Assembly (NCBI GenBank): GCA_963565915.1
Contig: OY751487.1
Coordinates: 2,294,001 to 2,358,000 of the forward strand
From: Entoloma clypeatum
Taxonomy: Eukaryota > Basidiomycota > Agaricomycetes > Agaricales > Entolomataceae
Direction: 5' to 3'
Length of the DNA: 64,000 nucleotides
A model generated the notes under the pieces. That model worked only from the letters and a program-made list of their open reading frames with translations, ran no database searches and was not told the DNA's origin. Position numbers and translations under genes: made by a program. Shown piece by piece: positions 5,902 through 56,446 of this stretch. Numbering within the stretch: the first letter of the stretch is position 1; each line of letters opens with the position of its first letter.

Positions 5902-6207
5902 TCAAGTTATCGTGCTCTGCATCAAAGAATACCAAAGAATGCATTTCCAAAATGCAGATGCTTAGATGATTCATCCCTATGGCCTGGGAAGGTTTTCAAT
6001 ATTCATGGATTTGAAAGCAAATCAAGCAACACCGCTTTCTTGCCCATCTTCCAAACTTATCATTTTACCAGATGGTGCCAAGACTGCAAAAATGTGTGGT
6101 GTGCTTCTTGTTCTAACTCTGATATTCATTTAAAGGGGATCATCTATAATTAATTGGAAAATGGCTGGGGATTACAGTATATACAATGTACATGCAACAT
6201 GGCTATA
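5902..6207. other. non-coding stretch
   Basis: AT-rich sequence between two gene remnants. I see no open frame longer than a few dozen codons, no repeat ends and no RNA gene. Confidence 0.5.
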
Positions 6208-7105
6208 TTACTCCTCACAGTCAGTGAGTTCCAAACCATCTTCCCCCAATGGCCTGCGCCTGCACTCATGATTGCGGAATACTAGACGAGCTGTTATAAG
6301 CCCGCATGCATCGCATTTTGCAAAGAGGCCAAAAAATTCTTTTTTGGTGAGCCCAGGTCGCTCAATGCAGTCAAGTCTGACTATCTTACTCCAGTCTGTT
6401 TCATACTGCAAATCCACCACTGTAACACCCAGAGGTGGTGTGGCGTTGAGATCTGTTCTCATAGCTGACTTGAAACTGGTCCGATTTTGGAGGCTGTCAC
6501 ATACCAGCTTGCCCATATGTCCTTTTCAATGGTCTCCTGGAAGAGCTAGACTGGGAATCCTCCTCCGAGTGGTGGAGGCATGGGAGAGGGCATGGTGTGA
6601 ACACATCTTGTTTTTCATAAGCAATCACATGCTAACCCACTAGGAAACAAGTGACATACATCTAAGAGGGTATCTCTTCACCAGCAGTCTGAGTTTGGGG
6701 TAGAATCTTTCCAGGAGCACTAGGTGGCGTGGTGTAAGAACAACCTATCTCCTGTGAATCCGAGGACTTGCCCAAGTATCCGCATTGACTGTTTGCACAC
6801 TCCGCAACCCAGTCCCCTTTATACTGGCCATGGAGTGGCAGGTAGACGGCGGCCTCCATGTAACAGGATCCTTCATCCAACCGCTGGAGCAATGGACAGA
6901 GGCAGCAAGGCCCTAGGAATTGATGGTTTTTGCGATAGACATGCCACTCATCTGGCATAACATGTTTCCCATTGTTCACCGGCCTATGCCAATGATGAAA
7001 AATGTCATCTAGCAGAATTATGCAAATCATTGCATACCATTGGAACATCTTGAGGGTTAGCATTTTGGGATCGAGGGCCAGCATGCACTCTTTGAGAGTC
7101 GGCAC
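6208..7105 (-). pseudogene. hypothetical cysteine-rich protein gene, two exons, state uncertain
   Basis: Two minus-strand open segments look like exons of one gene. The 5' part (7105 down to 6662) encodes HHWHRPVNNGKHVMPDEWHVYR followed by paired cysteines (GPCCLCPLL, then ECANSQCGYL). The 3' part (6516 down to 6208) encodes a ~100-residue segment with CDACGLI and a late NHEC motif, ending in an acidic tail. The Cys/His spacing suggests metal binding. I do not recognise the family. The stretch between the parts (6517-6661) contains stops and may hold an intron, but no clean splice pair was fixed. Confidence 0.35.
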
Positions 7106-15852: not shown

Positions 15853-16711
15853 CTACTGGGTCTTGGCCTTTTTGGCCGGCGGACCGTCATCCTCAGACTC
15901 TTCCTCTGGCTCTCCCTCCATCTCCTCTTTCTCCGCTTGCAGTTCCGCAAGCTCCCCGTCCTCCAGCTCCTCGTCCTTCCCCTCGTCCTTTTTCTCGTCC
16001 TCTTCCTCTCCTTCTTCCTCTTCTCTGTCCTCCGGCTCCGACTCTGGAGCCACCGCCTCCAGCAAGAAGTTCCGGTAGGTGAGGTGGTTGTTCAAGATTT
16101 GCAGCTGCCAAAGCAGCGTGCAACCGACCATTGCCGACCATTCCTCCTTCTCCACCAGAGCCTCCCAGAGCTCCTGGAGCTCCTCTGCGACCCCTGCCCC
16201 ACAGCAGCCTTTTGCCCTGCTTGGACCCGCAACCTCTGCAATGGCCTCCTCCGTTTTTCCCCATTTCCGCTTCACCTGCATCTCACTGGCCTTCAGGCAA
16301 ACCCATTTGCCGTCTTTGCACCGCTGGCACGCAGTGCCTTTCTCCTGCCTAAGGAGATTGTCGGTAAAGAAAAGAAAATGGAGAAGTGGGTACTCACAGC
16401 GCCCACTTGCATTCTACCTTGGCCTGCGCACAGGCCTGATATGCCTCCCCCCAGACCTCCGACTCCTCCGCTCCGCTCTCCGCCCTCTGCTTCCCCGCTT
16501 TCTTTGCCCTCTTCTTCTCTGCCTCTGCCTTCGCCTCTGCCCTCTCTTTTGCCTCCACCTCCTTTGCCCTCCTCTCGGCCTCCGCTTTCCTCCTTGCCTC
16601 CACCTCCTCCTTCTCCTTACGTATCTGTGCCAAACGGCACAGGAGCTCCTCTTTGGAGTCATCCAGGTTGGCGCTGGAGCACGTGGGTTGTGTGTTCGAG
16701 TTTTGGGGCAT
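15853..16711 (-). CDS. antisense two-exon gene in element E, Zn2Cys6-like coiled-coil protein
   Basis: It lies on the strand opposite to pol, between pol and the 3' LTR. Exon 1 is 16711-16398, the intron 16397-16349 (49 bp, GTGAGT...CCTTAG), exon 2 16348-15853. Splicing gives 269 residues. Residues 15-75 are a charged coiled-coil-like stretch rich in Glu, Lys, Arg and Ala. Residues 91-122 fit a fungal Zn(II)2Cys6 cluster (C-X2-C-X6-C-X10-C-X2-C-X6-C), except that the first Cys is Tyr91 (TAT at 16439-16441). The C-terminal half is very acidic and ends in a basic PPAKKAKTQ tail that could be a nuclear signal. The intron interrupts the fourth codon after Cys3 in phase 2, exactly as in element F. 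Possible roles are DNA binding or regulation of element or host transcription. This is inferred from the motif alone. Confidence 0.68.
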
Positions 16712-16993: not shown

Positions 16994-18180
16994 CTATTTT
17001 TTTGACTCAATCTCCTTACCTTTATCCTTGGCTTGAGTGCTGATTTGGGTGGCCTTCCCTTTAGCCTTGGAAGCGGAGGAGGTGGACTTGGGACAGTCTT
17101 TGACAGCATGTCTGATGCTACCACAGAATAAGCAAAGGTTATTATCAAAACAATGTTTGCATTCTTGATACGTCAGTTTGCCATCCTTGCCTAATTCACT
17201 GGAGAGATCGGGTTTCAGAGCGGAAGTGGAAGTGGAAGCGGTAGCAGGTGTGGAGGGTTTCAAAGATGGTGTTTGTGCAGTGGATTGGTTTGGAGCGGAT
17301 GGTTTCTTGTCAGACTTGGGAGTGGGTTTATTGGTTCTGGATTTCTCTCGTTGACATTCCCAGTAGCAAGTGTCAATAGTTTGAGCCGCAGATCGTAAGT
17401 CTGGCAAGGACTTGATCTTGGGTTGTTGGGAGAGAATGTCCTTGATCTGATCCAGAAATAGCGGTGTCAGAGGGAGTTTTCATCCCAGTCAGTCTTGGTA
17501 GCAAGACGTTGAAATTCAATGTTGTACTTCAAAATCTTTTGATTTTCCTTCATCCACAGGTTGTCCAATTGTTCTTTGGCTTTGCCCTGAGGGTCAATGG
17601 TACCAAACTCGGAGCGGAGAAGTTGGACAAAGTCAGGGAAAGAACCCTGCCAATTGGGTTCATTATCATCAAGAATGAAGGGTTCAAAGAATTTGAGGGC
17701 TGTGCCTCAGAAGTAAGACATAGCAAAGTTGACTTTGGAATGTTCTGAGTTGAAGTTGTCATTGTTGGAGAAGTAGAGTTTGCATTGTAAAATAAATGCA
17801 GAGAGTTTGCACGGATCAGATCCATCAAAGGTATCTGGTTCGTTGGCATACAACTTTTTCTTCTTTGTGTCACGACATTTCAACTCTCTGGTCATAAGCA
17901 AAATGGCTTCAGCTAGATTGAGTTCTTGATCTGGATTGGAATCGGAGTCATCCAAATCTCCATGTAAACTAGCATCAGATGGAGGAGGAGATCCTCCTGG
18001 GGGTCCGCCAAATATGCCAAAATTTGGAGGTGCAGAGGGTTCCCTTGGTGGGTTTGGAGGACTGGGGGGAAGTGGTGGGAGCTGATCAGAAGAAGGCAGA
18101 GGAACAGATGGTCCAGGGGTAGGAGCGGATGTTGATGCTGTGGCTCCTCAAGGGGTAATGGTTACATTGCATGAAAGCAG
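16994..18180 (-). pseudogene. gag: gag pseudogene of element G
   Basis: The capsid part (AEAILLMTRELK, EPDTFDGSD, LYFSNNDNF) matches F Gag. The C-terminal part carries a Lys/Thr/Ser/Pro-rich linker and one CCHC knuckle (CLFCGSIRHAVKDC near 17100-17140), ending ESKK. Frames change between 17407 and 17955, so the gene is broken. The stop codon is preceded by seven A residues (minus strand, 17003-16997), the same -1 slippery arrangement as in F. Confidence 0.75.
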
Positions 18181-19924: not shown

Positions 19925-20750
19925 GTTGTTGGAGAGGCTTTTGAGGTGGCAATGCAGAGAAAACCAGCAAAAAAAGCGGCATCAGTTGAGGTGGCAATGT
20001 AGAGAAAAGTGGCATTGGTTCAGAGAACCAGCATTGCCTGTACTATATGTACTGGTGTTTCCTCACCCCAGGAAAAAAAACAGCATCAGTTGAGGTGGCA
20101 ATTGTTGAGGCGACATGTGAGTCTGACGACTACATCCACAGGCCCGAACATAAAACACGCAAGGGGAGGGGATACGATGCCATCAAGACAAAGGAGCGAT
20201 GCTGACTATTGATCCACATGGGATCTCAAGAGAACAAGCTACAGAATACAAAGGAAAGTAGGCTACTTATATATGTAAATACCATGAGGCATAAATGAGG
20301 TGCACAGTAAATAAGACTGTTCTAGAATAACATGTGTCTAACATGAGGTAGGACAAGATAAAGGTTTCAGATAAGATAGGATAAGATCAATAGATAAGAT
20401 AAGATGAGATAAGATAAAGAGATAAGATAAAGATGAGATTAGATATTAGGATAAGATAAGAGCGATCATAACAGCAATGCAGAGAATACCAGCATTGGAA
20501 GTTCAGGCGGCAATGCAGAGACTGGACACAAAACTCACACCAGGAAAAAAACGGCATGAGTTGAGGTGGCAATGCAAAGAAAACTGGCATCTATTGAGGC
20601 AGCAATGCAGAGAATACTGGCAAAAAAAGCAGCATCTGTTGAGGCGGCAATGCAGAGAAAAGCGGCATCTGTTGAGGTTACAATGCAGAGAAAACTGGCA
20701 AAAAAAGCGGCATGAGTTGAGGCGGCAATGCAAAGAAACCCGGCATTGAA
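19925..20750 (+). repeat. minisatellite interrupted by a solo LTR
   Basis: Imperfect tandem units of about 32-45 bp with the core gttgaggYggcaatgcagag and spacers such as aaaactggcaaaaaaagcggcat occupy 19925-20102 and 20474-20750. The two halves were one array before the solo LTR inserted. At least eight units are recognisable. Confidence 0.8.
20103..20473 (-). repeat. solo LTR (371 bp), I family, with 5-bp target duplication
   Basis: Ends TGTTGAGG...CATAACA. Both flanks are GCAAT (20098-20102 and 20474-20478). It shares its start, the tctcaagagaacaagcta block, the TATATAAG box and the agataagataaga simple repeat with the LTR of element I at 62058-62345. No internal sequence remains, so it is a recombination product. 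Confidence 0.88.
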
Positions 20751-21303: not shown

Positions 21304-21654
21304 AGTGTAGGTTGACTACCTGGTGGGGCAGCAGGTGTTTTCTGCCACATTGAGGACATTGTTGGGGGTCCCTGTCAACTGCACAGAACAATTGCCGGAT
21401 GTCATCCAGTTTGAGGTCTGTTCCCCATGTCCACTTCAGGGATAGTTGTGAGACGAGAAGTTGATGTTTGGCATTGGTGTGTTGACTCAAGATCTTGGCA
21501 AGCTCGGCCCTACTCAGATTCTTCACAACAGTCCCTTTAGGTTGCGAAGGCGTGATAGGCCGATGCTGATGCTGGTGCAGGTCATGATACAGGACCCGGT
21601 GAGGATACCATACCGGAGGCGATGAATCCAGTAGCCGTGTGTGTTCCTTCTTTT
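21304..21654 (-). pseudogene. unrecognised gene remnant, part 1 (split by element F)
   Basis: The minus strand encodes LLDSSPPVWYPHRVLYHDL, then LSRAELAKILSQHTNAKH, LKLDDIRQLFCAVDRD and a Cys pair (CPQCGRKH). It seems to continue a minus-strand frame right of element F, with a one-base frame difference. I do not recognise the family. Confidence 0.35.
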
Positions 21655-22138
21655 TGTTACATTCCGATCCATTCCGATGATTTCCGACCAATCCCGACAC
21701 CTCCGACACCTCTGACATTTTGACTAATACTTATTATGCATACTTACTGTTATGAATCTCGTTACTACATACATTACTTACATCTGACCATTTTACTTAT
21801 GTTATGAATCTCCAACAGCCACTCGTTATCCGACTCCGACGAAGCCACACGTCCTCCGACATAGTATTTAAACTTATGTAGAATCGTGTGTTAGCTTCAG
21901 TTTGAATATCAACTTAGATTTGACATCATACCTCCCGTCCTCTTTCCGACTCTTAACTTGAGTCCAACCTCCGACCTCCGATCCTCCGATCCTCCGAAAT
22001 AAGGACACCAACGTATTAGCGAGGGCGCAACACACAAGTTGAAGCCAAGTCCTTGCCCCTACGTTGCACGCGCTTCGACCCTCCGACTTTCCGATGCGTC
22101 CAACGTAGCTCCGATGTTTTGTCGATCAGTTCTTAACA
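21655..22138 (+). repeat. 5' LTR of element F
   Basis: TGTTACATT...TTAACA, 484 bp. TATTTAAA starts at 21865 and AGTTTGAATAT starts at 21899, the predicted transcript 5' end 34 nt downstream. Confidence 0.93.
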
Positions 22139-22140
22139 GT

Positions 22141-22151
22141 ATATTCAAACT
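22141..22151 (+). promoter_or_regulatory. self-priming primer binding site of element F
   Basis: ATATTCAAACT, two bases after the LTR end, is the exact reverse complement of AGTTTGAATAT at 21899-21909 inside the LTR. This is the Tf1/sushi-type arrangement, in which the RNA 5' end primes minus-strand synthesis. Confidence 0.85.
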
Positions 22152-22184
22152 GCCACTCGCTTATCCATATTTCAAATTCCAGTT

Positions 22185-23174
22185 ATGGCAGCCCGCACCA
22201 CTCAGAACTCCCACGCAGCAGCAGCAGCAGCGGAAGCTTCAAACCTGCAGGACACCAGGGCAACATTTCTACATATGTTCCAAGATATTCCCGCAGAAGA
22301 ATCTGCACCCAAACCTGACCCCATATCTCCGACACCTCGTCTCCGAACACCTCAGACACAAGGACCTCCGATTCCTGAAGAATTCCGTCCTTTTAAATCT
22401 CCGACCTCTCCTTTTGACAATAACAATCCTTTCCGTCGTGAGCAAACTCCAAACCTCGCCGAAGCAATTATGCTTATGACACAGGAGCTCCGACGTAGAG
22501 AGACTCCGAAAACTCCGAAAAAGAAGTCGAAGGAACCCGACACTTTTGACGGTTCCGACTCTCAGAAACTCACCAGTTTCCTTGCACAATGCACACTATA
22601 TTTCCGAAACAACCCCGCCTTTGACGACAATGATAACAAAGTCAGTTTCGCTCTGTTGTACCTCCGAGGAACCACGCTCGAATGGTTTGAGCCCACCCTC
22701 TTGGGAGAGTCCGACGACGACTCTGTCTGGTTGGACGACTGGTCCACCTTTGTGCACATCCTCCAATCTGAATTCGGACCTATCGATCGGACTGGAGAAG
22801 CAGAGAATAGCCTGGATCACCTTCGGATGCGCGACAATCAGAAGATCCTACGTTACAACATGGACAAAAAACAGACCCCCGCTTCATCATCCTCCAACAA
22901 CAACTCCTCATCGTCTAAACCCAACTCGCAACAACAACAAAAATCATCATCCACCTCTCTAAAATCCGCCCTCTCCGACAAACTTGGCAAAGATGGGAAA
23001 TTAACTCCCCAAGAACGCCAATGACGATTTGACAATAATTTATGCATGTCTTGCGGCAACGTTGGTCATCGGGCTTCCGACTGCTCGAAGAAATCATCTT
23101 CTAACGCCAAAGCAAAGGCCCGCGCGGCCCAAGCTGAGGACAAATTGGAGAAGACGACCGAGTCAAAAAAATAG
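22185..23174 (+). pseudogene. gag: gag of element F (one internal TGA)
   Basis: 329 codons. The capsid part contains EPDTFDGSDSQKL, CTLYFRNN and LRGTTLEWFEPTLL. One CCHC knuckle (CMSCGNVGHRASDC near 23046-23087) precedes the end ESKK. A single TGA at 23022-23024, next to a CGA codon and probably from CGA, interrupts it. The stop TAG at 23172 directly follows seven A residues (23165-23171). Slippage by -1 there leads into pol. Confidence 0.85.
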
Positions 23175-26100
23175 TAAGCAGTCCTCAGATTCCAGCATGT
23201 ACTGGGGATTGCGTTGACTCCTTTCGTGCACCTTTGGAAACCCTCCAACTCAATGTGTCCGCTCTCTCAAATCTGAACTCTCTATGTATTGATTTGATAT
23301 CTCCGATCTTTTCCGATTCTCTTCTGATAAAGACTCTTATTGATTCTGGTTCTACACATTGCTTCGCAGATACCAGATTTATTTCTTCTTTAAACTTATC
23401 TCCGACTCCGATTCCTTCACCTATGGTTTTGAAACTTTTTGACGGTTCTTCAAATACTTATATCATGCAATCTATCGATCTTCCTCTCCGATTTCCTTCC
23501 GGTGAACTTCTGACCGTCGCATTTTACGTGACAACCCTCGATTCGTCTTGTAATTTGGTTCTAGGACACAACTGGCTCACCCGCTACAATCCGTTGATTG
23601 ACTGGGTATTGGGCAGTATCTTATTCCGTTCTACGTTACCCGACACTCCGAGTCCGACTCCAACATCGACTGCTGAGGCAGCTCCGCCACCTCTGCAGTG
23701 TCTGCCCTCTCCGATGGGCACCTCTGATCCGCTCACTCCGAACACCTCCGACCCGCCACAGATTACCATGGTCAATGCAGCCGCATATCTCCATGCTTGT
23801 AAAGCTCCTGGGGCATACGCTTTCCGCGTTCACCTCTCCGACATCTCCGCCAATTCTGCGTCTGTCTCCGATGACGCTCCCGACCTCTCTGGCATACCCG
23901 AGGAATACCATGATTTTGCTGATGTATTCAGTAAGAAAAAAGCTGACACTCTTGCACCCCACCGACCGTACGACCTCAAGATCAATTTGGAGGATGGTAC
24001 TTCCCCTCCGATGGGTCTGATGTACTCACTCTTGCAATCCGAACTTGGATCCCTCTGAGACTTCATCAATGAGCATCTCAATATCGGTTTCATCAAACCT
24101 TCTAGTTCACCGCATGGTGCTCTGATCCTCTTCGTCCAAAAGAAAGATGGATCACTCTGACTATGTGTTGACTACCGAGGCCTGAACAAAATCACGAAGA
24201 AGGACCGATACCCACTTCCACTCATCTCTGACCTCTTAGCCACTGCCGGAAAAGCACGTGTTTATACCACCATAGACCTCCGACACGCATACCACCTAGT
24301 CCGCATCGCTGAAGGTGATGAATGGAAAACTGCATTCCACACTTGGTATGGATCGTTTGAATGGTTAGTCATGCCATTCGGATTGTCTAACGCACCTGCA
24401 GCCTTTCAACATTTTATGAACGACATCTTCTGGACAACTGCGTTACCGTTTACCTTGATGACATCCTGATCTACTCCGACAACCCCGAGGAACACAAAAA
24501 ACATGTCCGAGAAGTCCTCCAATGACTCCGACAACATGGTCTTTACGCTCGCACCGACAAGTGCAACTTCTCTGCTGAAACTGTAGAATATCTTGGATTT
24601 ATCCTTTCTCCCGACAGACTCAAAATGTCGGAAACAAAAGTCAAGATTATTCAGGATTGGCCTGAACCGCGCAGAGTGAAGGACGTCCAGTCCTTTTTAG
24701 GTTTTGCAAACTTTTACCGACGTTTCATTCCATTCTATTCCAACATCACTATTCCACTCACTCGTTTAACCAGGAAACATGCCACTTGGCTGTTCTCCAA
24801 CAATGCTCAAACCACTTACAATGACCTGAAAAAGGCATTTACCACCGCTCCGATCCTGACACACTGGATCCCGACTCTCCGATAATTGTTGAAACCGACA
24901 CATCTGACTATGCCCTAGCGGCTATTCTGTCGATAGTCACCTCCGACAATGAAGTCCACCCTGTCGCATTCCATTCCCGCACCTTCATGGCCTCCAAAGT
25001 AAACTATGACACCCACAATAAGGAACTTCTTGCCATCTACGAAGCGTTTAAAATTTGGCGCCATTACCTTGAAGGCTCCGGTACTCCGATTGATGTCGTT
25101 ACCGACCACAAAAATCTCGAGTATTTTGCCACCACCAAAGTTCTTTCATGCCGACAAGTCCGATGGTTGGAATACCTTTCTCAGTTCAACCTCATCATCC
25201 AATTCCGCCCCGGCTGATTGGGAACTAAACCTGACTCAATAACTAGACGTTGGGATGTCTACCCTAAAGGGGGAAATAGCGACTACGTCGACATCAATCC
25301 GACCAACCTCCGACCAGTCTTTTCGCAAGAACAGCTCTCTGCTTCAGTTCGCGCGACTCAACTCCTTGAGCCCGTCCTCCGTGCAACCATTATCATGGAC
25401 ACAGAAAAGCTTCACCATGACATACTCACAGCACTCCCTTCCGACACTCTTTACGACACTCTTTCTAAAGATCCTAAACCCCGCTGGTCTCTTGACCCTG
25501 ATGGTTTCCTCCGACATGACGATCGGATATACGTTCCTGACTCCGACGACCTCCGACTCCGAGTCCTACAGCACAAGCACGATCACATGCTTGCTGGACA
25601 CCCAGGTCAGAACAAGACACTCAGTCTCATTCAGCGTGATTACACCTGGCCCGGGATACGAGATTTCGTTAAACACTATTGCAAGTCATGTACCACTTGC
25701 ATGTGATCAAAGCCACAAAGACACAAGCCTTATGGCCTACTCAAACAGCTTCCGATTCCCGAACGTCCTTGGAATTCTATCTCAATGGATTTCATTGAGA
25801 CCCTTCCGACCTCTGACAACTTTGACTCCATCCTCATTATCGTTGACCGATTAACGAAACAAAGTATTTTCATTCCGACAACAATTCACTGCACCTCCGA
25901 AGACCTTGCCATTCTCTTCGTATTGCATGTCTTCTCTAAACACGGCGTTCCCGAACATGTCACCTCTGACCGCGGCCCTGAATTCATCTCCCGATTCTTC
26001 CGATCTCTCGGAAAGGCTCTAAACATGACCCTCCACTTCACCTCCGGTTACCACCCCGAAGGCGATGGCCAAACCGAACGCACTAACCAGACCCTCAAAC

Positions 26101-26721
26101 AGTACTTGCGGATATTCTGCAACTACCAACAGGACAACTGGTCCGCTCTCCTTCCGATTGCGGAGTTCGCGTACAACAACGCACCTAGTGCTACCACTGG
26201 CATATCTCCCTTCTTTGCTAACAAGGGTTACCATCTGAACATTACTGTTCACCCGGAATGAGACCTCGCCTCTTCCTGAGCCCGATCCTTCGTGACCAAC
26301 TGAGACGAACTTCACCAAGAACTGAAAGCCACCATCTCCGATGCTCAACAACGTTACCAGAAGTCCTCCGACAATAATCGGATCGCACCTCCGGCATTTT
26401 CTGTCAGACAACAGGTTTTTGTCAAAGCACAGTTCTTCCGCACAACACGCCCATCCAAGAAATTCTCAGAAAAGTACTTGGGACCATACGAGATCATTGC
26501 ACAACCTGGCACACACTTCTTTACCCTCCGACTCCCCGACACATTCCGCGGTGTTCACCCCGTCTACCACGTCTCCATGCTTGAACCCGCAACTCCGATA
26601 TGAAAACACTGATGAAGAATTCTCTTGGCTACCAGCCAATGAATTGGAAAACGCCCCCGAGCTTGTCTCCGACTTTCACTCCGCTTATCCCGACAAACCG
26701 GGTCTGCTCACATCGCTCTGA
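23175..26721 (+). pseudogene. pol: pol pseudogene of element F
   Basis: In order: aspartic protease (LIDSGSTHCF near 23330-23360, LGHNWL), RT with YLDD at 24451-24462, RNase H (ETDTSDYAL; YDTHNKELLAIYEAFKIW), integrase zinc region (HKHDHMLAGHPGQNKT; CKSCTTC), catalytic segments SMDFIETLP, SDRGPEF and GQTERT (25785-26075), and a GPY-type motif (YLGPYEII). Nearly the whole chromodomain is lost by a deletion after LEPATP (near 26600); only its last part (EEFSWLPANELENAPELV) remains. Stops near 24058, 24161, 24525, 25217, 25708 and 26262 are mostly TGA where CGA is expected, and there are two frame changes. Confidence 0.88.
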
Positions 26722-26748
26722 AACAAGAAAAAACAAGTACTATTCTAT

Positions 26749-27714
26749 CTACTTAGTACGTTGTTTCTTGTTTGATGGACCCTCCTCCTTGTCTGACTCC
26801 TCCTCCTCCTCCGCCTTCTCCAACGGCTCCGAAATCGACATGTCGGAATCGTCGGACAGCTCCGGCAACTCCAACCTCTTCCTATTCACAAGATCCTTCC
26901 TTATCCTCCTCGCGATCCTCTTCTCCAGCCTTAACTCATGCATCTCCTCCCTCGTATCCATCTCCGACTCCGACCCTTCCTCCGACACCTCCGGCAACTT
27001 GGGTTGATACTCGGTGTTCACCGAGCCTTCAACTGCTGTTAGCAGTCGCCTCACCTGCCTCGTCTCTGCCAGTATCATCTTGAGGACACCCAAGACGGTG
27101 TCCTCCGACCCACTCTCCGATGCCTTTTTCTTCCCCTTAATCACCTTCACCGTTTTCTTCACCTCCTTCACCTCCGACTTTCCCTCCGACACTCCGACCT
27201 CGCACTTCTTCTTGTCCTTGATGCAACCCTTGCAGGACGACTTATTCCTAAAACAAAAGGTTAAAACAGAAGAGACGAACCAAAGAAGAACTTACTCATC
27301 GCGTTCGCATTCGATGCCCTTCACAATGCACCTATCACAGGCGCTGACCCCGACCCCGACTCCCAACCCCTCTCCGACCGTCGCCGTCACCTCCTCTACC
27401 TTCCTTTTCTTCATCACCTTCTTCTTCTTCTTCTCTGCCTGCGGCCCCCCCGACCCCTTGCTCAATGCGCCTTGCGCAGCGACCACTTCATCGGCCCTCT
27501 TCTGAGCCGCCAGCTCCGACGCCCGACGCATCTCCTCCGCTACCCGCATCTCCTCTGCTAACCGCGCCGCCTCCGCAGCCCTCTCTTCCTCTGCTCTCCG
27601 CTCCTCCTCAGCCTTCCTCGCGGCCTCCTCCTCCGCTGCTCGCTTCTTCGCCTCCACCTCCGCGAGCTTAGCCTGCAGCACCTCCATCTCCTTTTGAAAA
27701 TCAGTTGCCGACAT
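26749..27714 (-). CDS. antisense two-exon gene in element F, Zn2Cys6-like coiled-coil protein
   Basis: It lies opposite to pol, between pol and the 3' LTR. Exon 1 is 27714-27296, the intron 27295-27248 (48 bp, GTAAGT...TTTTAG with a TTTAAC branch-like site), exon 2 27247-26749. Splicing gives an uninterrupted 305-residue product. Residues 5-85 form an Ala/Glu/Arg/Lys coiled-coil-like region. A basic run (KKKKKVMKKRK) follows. Residues 126-155 are a perfect fungal Zn(II)2Cys6 spacing (C-X2-C-X6-C-X8-C-X2-C-X6-C). The C-terminal half is Lys- then Glu/Asp/Ser-rich and ends NKKQRTK. A TATA-like TTTAAAATA (27784-27792) and a pyrimidine-rich stretch precede the ATG, suggesting its own promoter. The frame is intact while pol around it is full of stops. 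Role unknown; a DNA-binding regulator is the natural guess. Confidence 0.72.
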
Positions 27715-27875
27715 ATTGAGGTTTTTTTGGAAGAGTTTGAAATGAAAAGAGAATGGGGGAACAAGAAAGAACCATTCAGACGGTATTTTAAACCAATGCA
27801 TCACATGACGCAGTTCACGCGCACCGACCACCTAGGTCCTTAGGCCTCATGGGTTCGGCCCTAAGGGGGAAATAC

Positions 27876-28359
27876 TGTTACATTCCGCTCCATTCTGACA
27901 ATTTCCGACCAATCCCGACACCTCCGACACCTCCGACATTTTGACTAATACTTATTATGCATACTTACTGTTATGAATCTTGTTACTATGTACATTACTT
28001 ACATCCGACCATTTTACTTATGTTAAGAATCTCCAACAGCCACTCATTATCCGACTCCGACGAAGCCACACGTCCTCTGACATAGTATTTAAACTTATGT
28101 AGAATCGTGTATTAGCTTCAGTTTGAATATCAACTTAGATTTGACATCATACCTCCTGTCCTCTTTCCGACTCTTAACTTGAGTCTGACCTCCGACCTCC
28201 GATCCTCCGATCCTCCGAAATAAGGACACCAACATATTAGCGAGGGCGCAACACACAAGTTGAAGCCAAGTCCTTGCCCCTATGTTGCACGCGCTCCGAC
28301 CTTCCAACCTTCCGAGGCGTCCGACGTAGCTCCAACGTTTTGTCAATCAGTTCTTAACA
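27876..28359 (+). repeat. 3' LTR of element F
   Basis: 484 bp, paired with 21655-22138 and followed by the CTTTT target duplication. Confidence 0.93.
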
Positions 28360-28364
28360 CTTTT

Positions 28365-30349: not shown

Positions 30350-31606
30350 ATGATTCCACGCTTCGGAGCAGCTTCGTCCGTGTCTGACTCCGATACATCT
30401 CACACCCCTTCCAGTTCTTCTAATTACCTCTCGTTAACTGGTGATTCTGCTCCGCGCATAGTAATGGATGACCCCAATCGCCTTGAACAGCTCGAGCACG
30501 AGTTCCAGGAACAACGTCAAACTCTCGCTGATATCTCGACTCAACTTGACCAACTCCTCTTTGCCTTCAACGCAATTCCTGCCCCAGCTCCGCCACCTAT
30601 CCCACCTGCTATTATACCCGCTCCGCTCGCTCCTGCCAATCCGGGCATGCGTCGAGCAAAACCTGCCAATCCGTCGGACTTCGATGGATCACGCGCAAAT
30701 GGCTGGACCTTTCTAAACTCCTGTGAATTGTTTATGGGGCTGGCTCCGGAACAGTTCGCAGACGACCACGCTAAAATTTATTGGGCTTTATCTTTCATGA
30801 AGAGTGGACGTGCAGCACGCTTTGCGGATCGCATTATCCGACAGGAGCGGAGGACCGGTGCTCCGCCTTATCGGACTTGGGTGGACTTCTGTGCAGTCTT
30901 TACAGCGGAGTTTACTCCAAAGAATGAGGAACAGGACACGAGACTGATCCTCGAAGGAGAATCCTATTATCAAGGTCAACGGGATGTCGAGACCTATATT
31001 GATGAGTTCAAAGACTACATTGACAAAGCGGGCTATCAGGAGGATACCAACATCGTACTCAAATTCCGCCATGGTCTCTGTTCCGACATTCAGAACGAGA
31101 TTGCCACCCTGACCCACGGACAACCTGCAGATGACAACCCCGATGAGTGGTACTCTGCAGCACGAGTCAATGACGACAATAGAATTGCCAACAAAGCCTT
31201 CAAAGCCACTGCTCTGACCCGTGCCTCCGCCTTCCGCAATGTTGTCGGACCAAGAGTACCTGGCACCTCAGTATTCCCTCGCCCCTACATTCCATTCACT
31301 CCGCATACAGCTCTGCTCGCATCCGCATCCGCTCCGCTGACAAGGGACCCCAATGCAATGGACATTGATACTTCACGCGTCAAAGGCAAGAATGCCAATG
31401 CATGCTTCAGATGTAACAAAACGGGTCACTTTAGTCGTGAATGCCCCCTTCGCTTCGATGTTCGCTTCATGACAACGGAGGAGCAGGACAAGTTTGTTAT
31501 GGAACAACTCGTGGTCAAGGATGCAGCGGAAGGCAACTCCGTTCTGCCCACGGAGTCTGCGGAGTCGGAGGAAGGACAGGAGGATTTTCCTCCCCACAGC
31601 GAGTGA
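30350..31606 (+). CDS. gag: Gag of element C
   Basis: 418 codons without a stop. The N-terminus is Ser/Pro/Ala-rich with a short coiled-coil-like segment (LEQLEHEFQEQRQTLADIS). Capsid: GWTFLNSCELFMGLAPEQF through FRHGLCSDIQNEIATL. One CCHC knuckle (CFRCNKTGHFSRECP near 31401-31445), then an acidic end (PHSE). The protease region continues in the -1 frame. A GGATTTTCC word shortly before the stop also occurs before the gag stop of B and may be the shift site (inference). No ATG lies between the predicted transcript start and this ATG. Confidence 0.85.
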   Translation: MIPRFGAASSVSDSDTSHTPSSSSNYLSLTGDSAPRIVMDDPNRLEQLEHEFQEQRQTLADISTQLDQLLFAFNAIPAPAPPPIPPAIIPAPLAPANPGMRRAKPANPSDFDGSRANGWTFLNSCELFMGLAPEQFADDHAKIYWALSFMKSGRAARFADRIIRQERRTGAPPYRTWVDFCAVFTAEFTPKNEEQDTRLILEGESYYQGQRDVETYIDEFKDYIDKAGYQEDTNIVLKFRHGLCSDIQNEIATLTHGQPADDNPDEWYSAARVNDDNRIANKAFKATALTRASAFRNVVGPRVPGTSVFPRPYIPFTPHTALLASASAPLTRDPNAMDIDTSRVKGKNANACFRCNKTGHFSRECPLRFDVRFMTTEEQDKFVMEQLVVKDAAEGNSVLPTESAESEEGQEDFPPHSE

Positions 31607-32604: not shown

Positions 32605-34249
32605 GTCAGGGGAAGTGAAGATGAGCCGGTGTCCTGCACAATGCCGGACATGTCACCAAGAGGCAGCCCAAGAGTGGAAGGAGTGGAAGTTTGAACAAGT
32701 CTGCATCTGAGCCTGTCAGGTGGGTTCCACTCCGACATCTGGTCTAGAGGAGGAGGCTCCATGCAGCCCATGGGTGGAGGATGTCACAGAAGGAGAAGAA
32801 GCGGAGGAGTTAGTGGAAGATGATGAGGAAGAGGATGAGTTTGAGGAGGGAGACCACCTTTTTGTCGGAACAGTACCCGCGGAGGCGGAGTTCATCCGCG
32901 CTTCATCCAATATCTCGCAATGTCTATCGGAGGCCTTCCTCCGTAACCAAAAACCTAAATCTTTCCGCGACTCTGTACCAGACCACTTGTTTTACTTCGA
33001 AGACATATTCTCAAAGACCTCTTTCAACACCTTACCAGAAGAGCGGACTTGGGACCACGCCATTGAACTTGTTCCGGACGCCTCTCTGGTGGGTTGTAAG
33101 GTATATCCGCTTGCTCCGAACGAACAGAAGGAACTCGACGCATTTTTGGAGGAAAACCTTGCAACTGGTCGGATCCGCCCTTCCAAGTCTCCGATGGCAT
33201 CTCCGGTATTCTACATCAAGAAGAAGGATGGCTCCCTTCGTCTTGTACAAGACTACTGGTCACTCAATTCCAAAACTATCAAAAACAAGTATCCGCTTCC
33301 GCTCATATCCGAACTGATCAATAAACTTCAACGCGCTCAATACTTCACCAAGCTCGACATCCGCTGAGGCTACAACAATGTGCAGATAAAACCCGGAGAC
33401 AAGTGGAAGGCTGCTTTTCGGACCAATCACGGACTCTATGAACCATTGGTGATGTTCTTCGGCCTCACTAATAGTCCATCCACATTCCAGACTATGATGA
33501 ACGAGATCTTTCAGGACCTTATCACTGAAGGTGTAGTCTGTGTTTACCTCGATGATATACTCATCTTCATGGAGACCCTTGCAGAGCATCGGAGAGTCAC
33601 ACGGATCGTACTGGAACGACTTCGCGAACACAAACTCTATCTAAAACCAGAGAAATGCGAGTTTGAACAAACGCGCATTGAATACCTAGGCCTTATTATT
33701 GAACAAGGACACATAGAGATGGATCCGGTGAAGGTAGTGGGGGTCGCGGAGTGGCCTGCTCCGACAAATGTCCGAGAAGTACAGTCCTTTCTGGGATTCA
33801 CTAACTTCTATCGCCGTTTTATTGAAGGGTTTTCAGACATCGCGCGCCCTCTTTTCAAGCTCATGAAGAAAGGGCACCTCTGGTCTTGGAGGGAGGGAGA
33901 AGTGTCCGCATTTGCAGAGTTGAAGTGGAGGATTACATCCACTCCGATCCTGGTCTTAGCTGATCATGGAAAGGAGTGGTGGATAGAAGCGGATAGCTCG
34001 GACTTTGCAACCGGAGCAGTACTGTTCCAACCAACAGAGGACGGTAAGTGGCACCCTGTCACATTCTATTCCAAAAGCCTTAGTCCGGTGGAACGCAACT
34101 ACGAGATCTATGACAAGGAGATGTTGGCAGTGGTCCGCGCATTGGAGGAGTGGAGGCACTTCCTGGAAGGAGCAGAGAAGACAGTGGAGATTTGGACGGA
34201 CCACAAAAATCTTGAGTATTTCATGACAGCTCAAAAACTAAATCGATGA
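32605..34249 (+). pseudogene. pol: element C protease end, RT and RNase H
   Basis: Starts with the last part of the protease region (RCPAQCRTCH), an acidic linker, then RT: KSPMASPVFYIKKKDGS, LDIR with TGA at 33365-33367 (TGG to TGA), VYLDDILIF near 33542-33568, the thumb (NVREVQSFLGFTNFYRRF) and RNase H ([38 protein letters not shown]). It ends at a TGA (34247-34249), where the neighbouring codon is CGA and arginine is expected. The same TGA is in element D. A further TGA follows VCI near 32708. Confidence 0.85.
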
Positions 34250-35616
34250 CAGGCTAGATGGTCCTTATACCTCGCTTGTTTCGATTTCAAAATGCACCAT
34301 CGACCTGGCAAGTCAATGGGCAAGTCCGACGCTTTGTCCCAACGAGCGGACCACGGAGATGGATCGTGGGACAACGAAAACATCATCCTTCTTCGACCAG
34401 AATTGTTTGCAGTGCGAGCAATGCGTGGGGTAACTGTTCAAGGGGAAGAATGCGACGTCCTCCGCCAGGTCCAACAGGTAATCTGAGAGGGGTTACTGGA
34501 GGATAGTGTGGCGGAGGTTGTCAAATCCCTTCTGACCGTCAGAGCGGGGTCTGTCCGTAGTGCAGAGTGGAGGCAAGTGGAAGGTTTGCTCTACTTCAGG
34601 GATCATATCTATGTTCCTAACAATCTCCAACTGCGTCATCGGATCCTCACACAACACCATGACACTCCGGTGGCCGGACATCCTGGATGGTGGAAAACCT
34701 TGGAACTGGTGTCGTGCAATTACTGGTGGCCACATATGTCTCGTTTAATAGGTCAATATTGCAAGACATGCGACCCATGCCTCCGCACCAAGGTCCGATG
34801 CATTCCGCCCTCTGGAGAGCTCAATCTGCTACCGGTCCCCACGGAGAAATGGCAAGTAACCAGTGTTGACTTCATTACTGAACTACCAGAAGCCCACGGC
34901 TACGACACTATCATGGTCATAGTGGACTCAGTAGGGAAGCAGGAACACTTCATCCCGATGCACTCCGACATCTCCACACTCGGGACTGCACGCTCCTATG
35001 TTCAAAATGTCTGGAAACTCCACGGACTACCGGAGGCCATTGTCTCCGACCGAGGACCACAGTTTGTCGCCAAGTTCACGTGCAAACTATACAGGCTGCT
35101 TAACATTAAGGTTGCTGCCTCGACAGCCTACCATCCGCAGTCGGACAGACAGACAGAGCGGGTCAATCAAGGATTGGAACAATACCTTCGCCTATTTGTC
35201 AATGAACGTCAAGACGATTGGGACGAATGGCTTCCGATGGCTGAATTTGCATACAACAACCATGTTCATGCATCGACACATCAAACTCCATTCTACATTG
35301 ACACCGGCCGCCATCCGCGCATGGGATTCGAACCTCGCGAGAAGCGGACAGAGATCGAGGCGGTAGCGGATTTCAGCCAGTGGATGAAGTCCGCTCTAGA
35401 GGAGGCTCGTGCAGCACTGACAAAGGCAAAAGACGACATGGCACGATACTACAACCAGCATTGGAGCACCGCTCCGACATTCTGCCTGGGGGACAAGGTC
35501 TTTTTAGACTCATCAGACCTCAAAACCACCCAACCCACAAAGAAACTTGCACATTGATACATAGGCCCTTTCCCAGTGGTCCGACCTGTCGGAACACATG
35601 CCTACGAACTTCGCCT
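34250..35616 (+). pseudogene. element C integrase core and GPY/F start
   Basis: A tether region, then a 349-codon open stretch (34508-35557): HHDTPVAGHPGWWKTLE and CKTCDPC zinc ligands, SVDFITELPEAHG, SDRGPQF and RQTERVNQ catalytic segments; Gly next to the catalytic Glu has become Arg. TGA codons near 34484 and at 35555-35557 bound it; both are also in D. The GPF motif (YIGPFPVVRPVG) follows and the chain is cut by element B at 35617-35621. Confidence 0.85.
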
Positions 35617-36026: not shown

Positions 36027-36395
36027 CTACTCCCATCCATCGTTGCCATTTGGATCGGCCCAGGCAGGGTCAACTCGGTTACCCCAATCCTTTATCAGTT
36101 CATCGTTTACCGCCGTGGCAAACTCTAAACCTCGAACGGCGAGGCGAAGGCGTCGGTTCTCGACAGCAAGGGTGTTGGTATAGTTTTTGAGGATGAGTTT
36201 CTCCTCAGCGGTGGGGGCGGTTGGCAAATCGGAAAGGGTATGAAGGCGGATATGCATCTGCCGGTGAAGGATGTCGGCAACGGAGGTTTCGAGCGCATGG
36301 ATCTGGTCGCGCATGGAGAGCGCTTCGCCGATGAGGGTGGTGATGGTGGGGTTGATATCGGAAGCATCGGTGGAGGCGGCGGTGATGTTGGACAT
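36027..36395 (-). CDS. ORF3 of element B, small coiled-coil protein
   Basis: 122 codons from an ATG, in the same sense as pol, starting about 115 bases after the pol stop. It begins MSNITAASTDASDI, has heptad-like leucines and isoleucines (LIGEALSMRDQIHALETSV; then AVENRRLRLAVRGLEF) and ends acidic and Trp-containing (DPNGNDGWE). It holds the position of env or other accessory genes but has no signal peptide or membrane segment. I do not recognise a family. How it would be translated downstream of pol is unclear. Confidence 0.55.
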   Translation of the reverse strand: MSNITAASTDASDINPTITTLIGEALSMRDQIHALETSVADILHRQMHIRLHTLSDLPTAPTAEEKLILKNYTNTLAVENRRLRLAVRGLEFATAVNDELIKDWGNRVDPAWADPNGNDGWE

Positions 36396-36510: not shown

Positions 36511-39500
36511 TTATCGTGGACGCGATGGATTTTGCCGATGAAAGTCTCGGATCAAGTCTTGAGCGTTCTGAACATTAGTCCGAGGTTCCCACGTGTTCTC
36601 TTCTGGGCCATACCCTTCCCATTGGACGAGGTACTGGATCTTTCCGCGGAATTTTCGAGAGTCCAGGATCGTGGAGACATGGTATTCTTCTCGTCCTTCG
36701 ACGATGATCGGATCAGGGGCTGGCTTCTTTTTCTGAATGGCATACTTCGGGGTTTCGTATGGCGATAACAGGGTTTCGTTGAACACAGGGTGGATCATTT
36801 TCCAGGTTTTGGGAAGATCAAGACGGTATGCGCTAGCTCCTTTCTTCTCTAGGACTTTGAACGGTCCGTGTCGGAGGGCGTCAAGTTTCTTTGAGGGACG
36901 ATCAGTCCTGATGTTAGTCCCTTCCAGCCACACCTTGTCTCCGATGCGGTAATCCCGAGACGGGCTTCGTCGTGTGTCAACTGTCTTCTTCATCTGATCC
37001 TGTGCCTGTTTTAGTGCTGCGTTGGCTTCTTCTCGTGCCTGTTTGAGTTTTTTCAAGAAGTCGTTTGCTGCCGGATTGGTGTCTTCCAACACAAGTTCTC
37101 CCTTCCAAGGATGCAGACCGTAGTTGAGATAGAATGGTGTGTACTTTGTCGCTTGATGTTCTTTGTCATTGTACTGGAATTCTGCGATTGCGATCCATTC
37201 CGCCCAATCATCTTGTAGATGGTTGACAAAGTTTCGTAAGAACACCTCGGTTTCCTGATGCGATCGTTCGGCCTGTCCATCAGTCTGTGGATGGTACGCA
37301 GTGGACAGATTTCTTTTGATCCCTAACATGCGGCAAAGTATCTCCATAAACTTCGCGGCGAACTGCGGTCCCCTATCGCTGATGATCTTCTTGGGAATTC
37401 CATGAAGTTTCCATATCTGGTCCCGATAGATCTTGGCTAATCCTTCAGCCAATAGTTCCACGGTTGTCGGGATGAGATGAAGCATCTTTGAATGTCTGTC
37501 CGTGATGACCAGAATTGCGTTCTTCCCATCAGATTCTGGTATCGGTCCTACGACGTCAATCCCTATATCTTCCCATGGTTGACTTGGCGCGGCGTTAGGG
37601 TGCAGAGGGGCGTGTCTCCTTTGGCGGCTGATCTTGTTGCGTTGACAGGTGTCACAACCTTTCACATACTTCTTTACGTCATGTAGGATGGTGGGCCACC
37701 AGTAGGTGCGAGTGAGAAGTTCATGCGTTCGATACTGTCCTGGATGTCCTGCCACTGGTGCGTCGTGCGCTTCAAACATCAGTTCTTGGCGCAATTGTGG
37801 GTCTGGTGGAACATAGACTCGTTCTCCTGCGTAGGTGATGCCATTTTCCTGCTGGTACCAGTGAGGATTCTTCTTCAGACCCTGGGCTACTTCTGTTTCC
37901 ATGCGATTCGAGGCCTTGATGCGTACGATCCATGGGTTTTCGATGGTTGTGATGTTTCCGATTTTGATGGAATCAGATGTTTCACCCCCTTCAAAGAATT
38001 GTTCCTCCGTGAACATCTCCATTTGTATCACATCTTCTGATTCCAATCGTTTCAAAAATAGCCCCTCCTTGAGCATTTGGTCGCTGTCCTGCGGCTCGAG
38101 TTCCGTCTCATACCAGGGTAAACGTGACAGGATGTCTGCTTTCGCGTTTGTCTTCCCAGGTACATGTCGCAATTCGAAGTCATAGTCTTGTAGCTTCATC
38201 TTCCAGCGCCTCTGTCGTTGGTTTAGGTCCTGAGGACGCCGGAAATACTCCAGGTTTTTGTGATCGGTTAAGATCTCGAAACGTTCCTTGGCTTCAAGTA
38301 GATAATGTCGCCAGTCCTTCAGTGCTTCCATGACTGCCAAGAGTTCCTTGTCATAGATCTCGTAATTCTGTTCGGCCGCGGACATGGTCCGCGACAAGAA
38401 CGCGATAGGATGCCACTTGTCGTCTTGTTTCTGTGAGAGTACCGCTCCAATTGCATAACCCGATGCATCGGTTTCAACCCTGAACTGTCCGTCCGGTTTG
38501 GGCAATGCCAAGACTGGTGCTGTCGTGATTGCCCGTATGAGACCTTCAAATGCTTCTTGCGCCGCTGGTCCCCATGTGAATGCTGTATTTCCCGTAAGTG
38601 TCGTGAGTGGCTTTGCGATGTTTGAGTATCCTTCAATGAAGCGTCGATAAAAATTGGCAAATCCCAGGAACCTCTGGACTTCCTTTTTTGATGTGGGTAC
38701 TCGCCAGTTCCGGATTGTGTCCACTTTTTCAGTTTCCATCTCGACACGTCCTTCACCCACGACATATCCCAATATGGGGCATTTCGTTACTTCCCAAAGA
38801 CACTTCTTCTCCTTTAGGAACAAGTCATTGTCCGACAGGATCTGCAAGATCTCTTCGGTGTTCCGGGCAAGTTCTTCCTTGGTTTTACCAATAACCACTA
38901 TGTCATCCATGTAAATCACACAGATGCGCCGACGGATCTGATCCCTGAATAGGCTGGCCATCATCCGAGAGAACGTTCCCGGGGAATTGCAGAGACCGAA
39001 AAACATGACCAATGGTTCAAACAATCCTCGGCTGGTCAAGAAGGCGGCTTTCCATTCGTCACCCTTTTTGATCCGCACATTATTGTATCCCCACATGATG
39101 TCCATTTTGTTGAAGTAGACTGCGTCCTTCAATACATCCAAGAGGTCGTTGATGCGTGGGAGTGGGAATTTGTCCTTAACCGTGAATTTATTGACTGTGC
39201 GATAGTCCTGTACCAGTCGTTTGGAACCGTCTTTCTTGTTAATGAAGAAGCAGGGTGATGCATAAGGGGATTTGGACGGTCGGATCTTTCCGGTTGCCAG
39301 GCCTTCATCGATGAATTCGTCCAGTTCTTCTTGCTCCTTTTGGGTCATAGGGTACGTGTTTCCTCCTAGCTCCTTTGGTGCGTCCGGTGTGAGTTCGATG
39401 CTGTGGTCCCATTCTCTTTCCTTTGGGATCTTGTCAAAGTTTTCTTTTTCAAAGAGATGGGCAAAACGTTCAACATATGAGGGTCGTTTGGTTGTGGGAG

Positions 39501-40160
39501 GTGGTGTGGGAGTAACTGCTTCCAATATGGGGTCTCCGGGCTTCCATTTCTGATCCGATTTCTTGGGCGCGTCCTTGTCTCGTACTTCCACCATGCGAAC
39601 CCGATGTTTGCGACCATTAAGGTTAACCCTGAAATCCGAGTGTTTGGTTTGACATGTTGATGGGCATCGGTTGAATGTTACAGCGCCGGTCGTCCAATTG
39701 ATTGTGGGGTTGTGGTGTACCAACCAATCATGTCCCAAAAGCATATCCGTTCTCCCAATGTCCAATACCATTGCCTCCATGGTTTCCTGGTGTGTTCCCA
39801 AGTCCAGCTTGACTTCGGCAAGTTTTTCTGCTTTCTGTTGTCGGTTCGGTGATCCATCCGCATTTAGGATTGATATGGGCTTTATTCCACGTGTGGGAAG
39901 GTTCTGTTCACGTACTATTCTGGGATGGATACATGTGCGTTCACATCCGCTATCGACCTCGGGTCGAATGGCCTTTGGTCCTCGTCGTGTTTTGATCTGA
40001 GCTTGCAGCTTGATCTCTCGTCGTTTCGGAGGTTTATCTCCCTTGACAATCTTAGTTGACGCAACGGCTCGCTTTGCAGGGATAACATAAGTTATATTGT
40101 CTGTAACTGCACCAGGCAAGCGAGTTCGTTTAATGGATAAGGGTCGCGACTTAGCGTCGT
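36511..40160 (-). CDS. pol: Pol polyprotein of element B
   Basis: A frame of 1,202 codons from the TTG at 40117-40119, open upstream across the gag stop in the -1 frame, so it is probably made as Gag-Pol by frameshifting. Counting from that TTG: protease D56-S-G, RT active site Y-M-D-D at 403-406, RNase H Asp551 with [15 protein letters not shown] and TDHKNLEYF, integrase zinc ligands in [10 protein letters not shown]...CDTC, and a DD35E triad of Asp855 (GIDVVGPIP), Asp915 (SDRGPQF) and Glu951 (GQAERS). A GPF motif and a C-terminal chromodomain ([33 protein letters not shown]) follow. No key residue is missing. The chromodomain class usually steers integration to heterochromatin, in line with the insertion inside another element. 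Confidence 0.95.
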
Positions 40161-55235: not shown

Positions 55236-56446
55236 GTAGTGTTCAAGGTATCAGTCCAGTCTGGTTTTGACCAAAAAATTGATGAACTGGAGACTGGCAG
55301 TTCATTTTTTTTTCTCAAAGTCTGAAAAAACTGGACTGGACTGGTGAAAACTGGTTTAAACCAGTTTAAACTGGTAAAATTCTCAGCCATTTATAAACCT
55401 ACCAAAAGCCTGTTTTTTCAATCAAAAACTTGAAAATATACTCAATTTGTTATCAATGACATGTTTCTCAAGCATTTTGGATATGAACTCTTGTAAAAAT
55501 GATTGAAAACTGTATAAAAGAACATCTTTGGCCATAAAAGTACAGTTTTTGAATGAATATATGGTCAAAAACTGGAACCAGTTCATATTTTTCAGACCCA
55601 AAACTAGAACTGGGGGTAAACCAGTCCATTTTTTTTCCAAATTTGGAGAGACTGGAGACTGGTGTTATATACCATTCTAGCTCCAACAACCTCTGATCAT
55701 CTCCGATCAATTCCGATCAATTCCGATCAATTCCGCTCCAATGATCTCCAATCAATTCCGATATTCTGGACATCTGTTACCTCCGCATCTCCGCACGTTG
55801 CCATCGTGCATTTCATATTCATAACTCCATGCCTTTATGCATTTCATATTCATATTCCCGTTTACTTATGCATCGCCTTTTCTGCATGGTCCATTGACCG
55901 ACATCTCCGATGTTCGTTACAGTCGCTGACAACTTATGCCACAACTCCGGACCTACTCCGACCATCTCCGTAAAGTAATCACATTTAGATATTTTAGCTC
56001 GTACCATACCTGTAGTTCCTCAGTTCGAATATCAACAAAGTTCACTCCTACTCCCCGTTCATGCCAGAGATCCTCGCCGTGGTACAATAAGCCAACGACA
56101 TCTTCATCTACTGCTCTTCCTCCATCGTTACCCTTCGACAAGCTCAGTACTGTGTCCGAGTCACAACTCCAATGTCGTCCGACCACTTCCACGTCAACGT
56201 GTCTCTCACCGAGATCTCTCCGAGGACCTCCGCACCTCCGACCACTCCTCCGACCTCCTGAAATTGGGACACCTTATCCAACAAACAGCGGCGCAACACA
56301 TACCTTGAAGCCATGTCCCTCCCCTTCGTCGTTCCTCCGCATTTCCAGAGTTCTGCTCCGGTCTCAGTCCTATGTCTGACCTCCGACGGACTCCGACGAA
56401 GCTCCGATGTTTCACCCACTTAACAACTGGTTACCCTCAAACACTA
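55236..56446 (+). mobile_element. hAT-like MITE copy h, split by a solo LTR
   Basis: Starts TAGTGTTCAAGG and ends ACCCTCAAACACTA at 56446. The interior matches copies a and g. A 763-bp solo LTR lies inside it. The flanking 8-mers (tcaaggag and ttgagaag) agree at only 5 of 8 positions. Confidence 0.7.
55663..56425 (+). repeat. solo LTR (763 bp), E family, ACTGG target duplication
   Basis: TGTTATATACC...CTTAACA with ACTGG at 55658-55662 and 56426-56430. It shares the acatctgttacctcc / catctccgcacgttgcc block with the truncated 3' LTR of element E. It is inserted in MITE copy h, so it is younger than that copy. Confidence 0.88.

Follow-up and report, generated by a model that had tools for sequence, protein, structure and literature searches.

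Element F, a Ty3/gypsy chromovirus in Entoloma clypeatum, carries on its opposite strand a spliced gene for a six-cysteine protein. The gene is an established accessory of one lineage of fungal chromoviruses: it accompanies most of the integrase copies examined, and its second exon is constrained. The element itself is saturated with the motif CTCCGAC in a single orientation. In the best reading, held at a probability of about one half, the accessory gene encodes a self-recognising antisense regulator, whose link to the motif we infer. The interpretation given in a preliminary description of this DNA, an antisense Zn2Cys6-like gene carried by the element, is supported, and the protein may, as suggested there, regulate element or host transcription.

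The window, a stretch of 64,000 nucleotides, contains element F complete with its LTRs (21655..28359, plus strand), as delimited by LTR self-match, by its ends and by a CTTTT target duplication on both flanks (21650-21654 and 28360-28364); 5-bp duplications are also present in all seven other copies checked. The 5' LTR (21655..22138) and the 3' LTR (27876..28359), both on the plus strand, are 484 nt each, share 94.4% identity in the self-match and have the ends TGTTA...TAACA. They enclose an internal region (22139..27875, plus strand) in which the stretch AAGGGGGAAA (27863..27872, plus strand) precedes the 3' LTR and, from its sequence context, presumably serves as the polypurine tract. Counted from stop to stop, gag has 424 and pol 1245 codons, and both are open in five of the 20 copies fetched. 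In copy L023, the intact pol closes with a chromodomain (read by eye) and ends at 5990, and the antisense gene occupies 6021-6986, so that the two lie tail-to-tail. When the two LTRs of each element are compared in a sample of 12 (L010-L012, L014, L016, L018, L022, L025-L028 and the window copy), they show 149 differences in total, 97 of which are CpG transitions, and this CpG-dominated decay suggests that these elements are CpG-methylated. Just upstream of element F lies an array of 80-nt imperfect direct repeats (19938-20748), consisting of a reference copy and five others at 63-85%.

The antisense gene is located between pol and the 3' LTR. On the minus strand, exon 1 (27296..27714) encodes a coiled coil, a basic run and the first half of the cysteine cluster; a 48-nt phase-2 intron, GTAAGT...TTTTAG (27248..27295), follows; and exon 2 (26749..27247) supplies the second half of the cluster, a second helical region, an acidic tail and the basic end SNKKQRTK. 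Splicing in silico yields a product of 305 aa, in which the intron-split cluster C-X2-C-X6-C-X8-C-X2-C-X6-C runs from C126 to C155 (27202..27339, minus strand). The coordinates and the splice given for this gene in the preliminary description are thus reproduced. An intron of the same pattern is found in 19 of the 20 fetched copies, L025 being the exception by pattern match. Its poly-T varies in length, giving introns of 52-56 nt in L018-L023 and L046-L048 and of 48-50 nt in the other matched A copies. Exon 2, unlike this poly-T, shows no frameshifting length change: the entries across 21 copies, taken from the top exon-2 matches and with shared events counted repeatedly, are 15 in-frame and 0 frameshift. 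A sense-strand intron would be expected to disappear through RNA cycles, and the persistence of this one therefore agrees with minus-strand transcription.

Of the stretches examined upstream of the gene, 17 of the 20 from A copies contain GTCATGTG (in element F at 27802..27809, minus strand) exactly, as do all 4 from B, the single one from type 2 and all 10 from D. This sequence sits 13-15 nt ahead of a TATA-like box and is the better conserved of the two. In element F this box reads GGTTTAAAATACCG (27781..27794, minus strand), for which most A/B copies have GGTTGAAAATACC. The TATA-like sequence singled out in the preliminary description, TTTAAAAT, proves to be private to the window copy among 20 aligned A copies, most of which read TTGAAAATA. 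In most copies GTCATGTG is followed by GGTT and an A/T-rich box, and this arrangement is kept from A to D although the proteins differ, which agrees with the antisense gene having a promoter of its own.

Domains of the Zn2Cys6 type are known for DNA binding, have the spacing C-X2-C-X6-C-X5-12-C-X2-C-X6-8-C and carry a basic loop between Cys2 and Cys3. The spacing fits the window copy, types A, B and D and the relatives; the exceptions are P0016, with 8 residues in its first loop, and the window's decayed D copy, where Tyr replaces Cys1. Across nine diverse, hand-picked sequences, the six cysteines are the sole invariant columns. Against Pfam Zn_clus (PF00172), the family that had been proposed for the cluster, the window protein scores 10.4 bits, below the gathering score of 21; the cut-out A domain reaches 13.5 bits, also below 21, and the L023 and D proteins give no match to this family. 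At E <=1, weak PF00172 matches are obtained for 7 of the 11 relatives, with 0.081 as the best E, and for 7 of the nine cut-out domains, where the best E is 3.2e-4. No bZIP family occurs among the Pfam matches at E <=1 for the element proteins and their relatives. When the modelled structure of the nearest relative in the databases is compared with the PDB by Foldseek, all nine matches at E <=10 are Zn2Cys6 DNA-binding domains, weakly matched (best E 0.035), and a cluster profile searched against PDB sequences places Pho7, AlcR and Leu3 on top (E 0.05-0.09).

The basic loop between Cys2 and Cys3 is absent: in the window protein the net charge is 0 in loop 1 and +3 in loop 2, and the charge of loop 2 exceeds that of loop 1 in 8 of the nine sequences. 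HMMER weakly pairs the first half of the element cluster with the second half of Pho7 and Leu3 and vice versa, but aligns AlcR and Put3 in order, and a half-swapped cluster is for that reason recorded as an observation only. The likeness to Pho7, AlcR, Leu3 and Gal4 consists of the six-cysteine spacing, the weak Foldseek and sequence matches and a Pho7-like half-site in the element; the differences are the score below the Pfam cut-off and the basic loop in the second half.

The same antisense frame recurs in the genome, where the preliminary description had proposed to look for it. For the A/B exon-2 frame there are at least 150 genome matches (151), with an internal stop in 19 of the 150 listed (hand count), and for sister type D there are 150 exon-2 matches among the matches listed. 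In a pol search that scored 150 of 2329 candidates, an opposite-strand gene lies within 2.5 kb downstream in 133 of the 150 integrase copies (86 A/B, 47 D) and a same-strand gene in none; 17 of the 150 are without the antisense gene among the matches listed. An open spliced frame of 284-320 aa is present in 16 of the 20 fetched copies, which were drawn from the top exon-2 matches; of the others, L010 and L014 are frameshifted within exon 1, the 5' end is missing from L016, and L025 has no intron-pattern match.

The copies fall into several types. Type B is near A up to the cysteine cluster and divergent thereafter: between A and B29, pS and pN are 0.02 and 0.006 before the cluster and 0.43 and 0.20 after it, and between A and B30 they rise from 0.10 and 0.015 to 0.42 and 0.21. 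At the level of sequence, this profile is a mosaic pattern. L032 and L034-L039 represent a less common and seemingly older type whose N-terminus differs, and in L032 and L035 this N-terminus is joined to a B-type C-terminus, a junction that points to module exchange between families.

Type D, whose pol has 1246 codons, was reached through an integrase of about 92% identity and has its own two-exon antisense gene in the same place in all three copies fetched. A and D share one build: a coiled coil, C-X2-C-X6-C, a phase-2 intron between Cys3 and Cys4, a further C-X2-C-X6-C, a second helix, an acidic tail and a basic end. BLASTP aligns nothing between the two proteins up to E 100, and MAFFT aligns them with 67 of 238 residues identical. 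Since the integrases are about 92% identical and the antisense proteins hardly alike, either the antisense gene has changed at a much higher rate than integrase, or an exchange has replaced it. With its many conserved copies and a sister family holding a gene in the same place, the gene is not the one-off host insertion considered earlier. Further afield, where the preliminary description had pointed to related fungi, Paxillus and Scleroderma provide probable relatives (weak E-values); no matches came from a protein search with the A protein, from viral contigs, from genome contigs, or from the D cluster against the PDB.

A second, decayed instance of the D-type gene lies in the window on the minus strand, with exon 1 (16398..16711, Cys1 changed to Tyr), a phase-2 intron GTGAGT...CTCCTTAG (16349..16397) and exon 2 (15853..16348). 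Judged by eye, a decayed plus-strand D element between 14000 and 17700 seems to adjoin, near its 3' LTR, the minus-strand gag of a related element (16994-17407 and beyond), seemingly as nested or joined insertions. Elsewhere, a Cys-rich stretch CEQCQKINNACQKEVGGGACVQC followed by a stop (56727-56630, minus strand) may be another zinc-cluster relic; it is close to an LTR that looks D-type by eye (55660-56430), with 14 TCCGA and 0 TCGGA. The window also holds an open pol of a different chromovirus (36511-40119, minus strand, 1202 codons), without TCCGA enrichment and, among ORFs >=100 codons inspected by eye, without such an antisense gene alongside. It is followed by a small sense ORF of helical look (36027-36395).

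As CpG transitions dominate the decay, pN/pS was calibrated by simulation, with a neutral star of 21 copies generated from L023 under the LTR spectrum of the 12 elements (60 replicates; for pol, 15 replicates and the first 1500 nt only). Exon 2 has a pN/pS of 0.201 against a neutral 0.401 (sd 0.041), gag 0.364 against 0.571 (sd 0.059) and pol 0.332 against 0.547 (sd 0.049); for exon 1 the value of 0.404 does not differ significantly from 0.463 (sd 0.053). Exon 2 is thus under purifying selection as clearly as gag and pol, and exon 1 is not demonstrably so; the comparison between copies, proposed at the outset as a check, gives selection for the second exon. The raw NG86 ratios (antisense 0.28, gag 0.36, pol 0.33) were rejected as a sign of strong selection everywhere: the neutral null is already 0.40-0.57, and for the same reason no claim is made for exon 1, and exon 2, gag and pol are judged only by their distance from the null. 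In both exons the lowest raw ratio among the six frames is that of the annotated frame. In an uncalibrated comparison of the C-terminal parts of A and B30, where the other frames serve as control, the true frame gives a pN/pS of 0.51 and the remaining five give 0.77-1.21, and six intact D copies of the 11 tried give an uncalibrated 0.417.

The preliminary description had stressed that the gene is intact although pol around it has stops. The frame is indeed open, but its openness owes something to composition and to the choice of copies: in the neutral simulation 4.0 and 5.1 stops are expected in the two exons of 21 copies, and 1 and 0 are observed in copies that are the top exon-2 matches. Stop counts were dropped as proof of constraint because of this origin of the copies and because the pol search scored only part of its candidates.

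The second line of evidence is the motif. Element F contains 94 TCCGA and 10 TCGGA, compared with 82 and 73 in the other 57.3 kb of the window; the ratio is 15:0 in its 5' LTR, 14:0 in its 3' LTR and 65:10 on the sense strand of its internal region. On the sense strand of copy L023 it is 19:0 in each LTR, 22:3 in gag, 63:7 in pol and 14:2 in the antisense region. Over 13 elements it amounts to 1659:173 in 91.8 kb, and in their flanks (13 of 20 copies) to 17:43 in 25.2 kb. The LTRs are the densest region, with steps of 6-11 nt within clusters, and the prevailing context is C-TCCGA-C, with the flanking C in 86 and 85 of 137 cases. In pol, all three codon phases have their share of TCCGA (20/17/26), which shows that it is not the product of a codon; its 63 occurrences compare with 19.6 (sd 3.4) in synonymous-codon shuffles, making it the most over-represented of the 1024 pentamers. 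In gag, 22 occurrences compare with 5.7 after such shuffling. Type D behaves likewise, with 15:0 in its LTR, a similar bias in its 5' half and 10 occurrences against 4.1 shuffled in part of its pol.

The controls are few, namely four pieces of other Ty3 families, the flanks of 13 copies and the rest of the window, and two of the pieces show minor excesses. TCCGA counts are 5 against 6.3 shuffled in pol 36511-40119, 3 against 2.9 in gag 30350-31606 (where TCGGA is 5 against 1.6) and 5 against 2.2 in 34508-35557, and the TCCGA:TCGGA ratio is 3:3 in 33380-34249. A one-orientation CTCCGAC array exceeding what codon usage explains is therefore present in A and D and not clearly in the window's other Ty3 pieces. 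Two further candidates were discarded: TCGGA on the strand of the antisense coding sequence itself, which codons explain (in A, 14 against 13.0; Ser codon TCG 24/29), and a protection of motif CpGs from decay, whose effect is small and confounded. The Zn2Cys6 factor Pho7 has the site TCG(G/C)(A/T)xxTTxAA, two of which stand as direct repeats in the pho1 promoter, according to the available text of PMC5559640.

Antisense ORFs in this place are already known, from plants and, as brtn, from Botrytis; the oriented CTCCGAC saturation is new. As reviewed in the available text of PMC7264820, plant aORF-3R frames lie between pol and the 3' LTR in Grande (gene23), RIRE2, Retand and PvRetro13, gene23 has a promoter upstream and a nuclear product, and the function of LTR-element antisense accessory genes is unknown. 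The gene described here resembles them in place, orientation and presence in most copies, and is conserved like gag and pol (exon 1 not significantly); it differs in kingdom, and neither an intron, an element-wide motif nor the term 'zinc finger' is found in that text. In fungi, Boty of Botrytis cinerea carries the antisense gene brtn, credited to Zhao et al. 2011 in the available text of PMC7264820, PMC8365987 and PMC4227169, and the likeness, judged by description, is that of an antisense gene in a fungal LTR element. PMC2864245, which surveys the chromoviruses of fungi, reports further ORFs and a dUTPase in its available text, and its main text is without the word 'antisense'; neither 'antisense' nor 'zinc cluster' occurs in that of PMC10799480. 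The earlier statement that no fungal element with a binuclear-cluster protein in this position is known to be described agrees with the literature surveyed, where no report of one was found among the papers listed (Repbase and subscription papers lay outside its scope); an antisense gene as such is on record for a fungal LTR element in brtn.

Two more distant systems offer partial models. HBZ of HTLV-1 is encoded on the minus strand, has a spliced form and is driven by a negative-sense promoter in the 3' LTR (available text of PMC10186651). Strand, splicing and a transcription-factor-like product are shared with it; HBZ is a retroviral bZIP protein, and the candidate promoter of the element lies instead between gene and LTR. 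VANDAL elements are Mutator-like DNA transposons. They combine a VANC protein with a short, dense, one-orientation motif in the same element (available text of PMC5735166), and by analogy the pairing of an element-encoded protein with such an array may correspond to what is seen here. VANC motifs are mainly non-coding, whereas here coding DNA is filled too and the match of protein and motif is putative.

CpG decay suggesting methylation, a CpG within the motif and a zinc-cluster-like protein have as their simplest joint reading a regulator that is encoded by the element and recognises the element's DNA. A minus-strand promoter just internal to the 3' LTR would drive the spliced regulator, which would be a nuclear, dimeric nucleic-acid binder of Zn2Cys6 type. 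It would recognise TCGGA/TCCGA in the DNA of its own element, most densely in the LTRs, and binding there would counteract silencing or set LTR transcription, an action that may be VANC-like combined with an HBZ-like placement. The binding of the motif, the direction of the effect and the choice of DNA over RNA are all steps that we infer. In its fullest form, which is put forward tentatively, the proposal is a self-recognition system. Its protein, of Zn2Cys6 type and made from the spliced antisense gene, would combine a permuted-looking cluster with a C-terminal module exchangeable between A and B; it would read the CpG-containing CTCCGAC spread one way through LTRs and coding regions whatever the codon phase, and would thereby keep host silencing off the element, as a fungal counterpart of VANC that arose by convergence.

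The protein evidence is independent of the motif, and the gene could therefore encode a Zn2Cys6-like host-directed regulator or nuclear factor without self-recognition, the CTCCGAC array being otherwise caused. Plant antisense ORFs in the same place, conserved, of unknown function and with one nuclear product (available text of PMC7264820), fit such a role. This explanation is somewhat unlikely, as an oriented, frame-independent motif resembling a known Zn2Cys6 site stays unexplained by it. The orientation on one strand across LTR, gag and pol would also suit a single-stranded target, in which case the protein or Gag would bind repeated CUCCGAC in the genomic RNA and so serve its export or packaging, as Rev or a nucleocapsid does. 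The greatest density in the LTRs, the 6-11 nt steps within clusters and the general association of Zn2Cys6 domains with DNA make this distinctly unlikely.

Control by dsRNA or siRNA, with the antisense transcript acting as RNA and the frame incidental, is discussed for plant and Drosophila elements in the available text of PMC7264820; it is very unlikely here, given the codon-frame constraint in exon 2, its in-frame length changes (15 against 0 frameshift entries in 21 copies from the top exon-2 matches) and cysteines that are invariant over very diverged proteins. A chance open frame or a single captured host gene draws some plausibility from the few stops, about 9 in 21 copies, expected under neutral decay. 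It is scarcely credible in the face of hundreds of matches, the agreement of two diverged groups in place and intron phase, the probable relatives in other fungi and a copy census that already speaks against it.

In conclusion, the favoured reading remains that of an accessory gene encoding a self-recognising antisense regulator. The element offers an antisense accessory gene whose cysteine cluster can be recognised and which bears a selection signal, and the candidate target is open to counting within the element's own sequence. If the reading is true, self-recognition by oriented motif arrays, so far found described only for plant VANDAL elements, would extend to fungi, and it would have arisen separately in a fungal retroelement, where it would even have shaped the codons of gag and pol.
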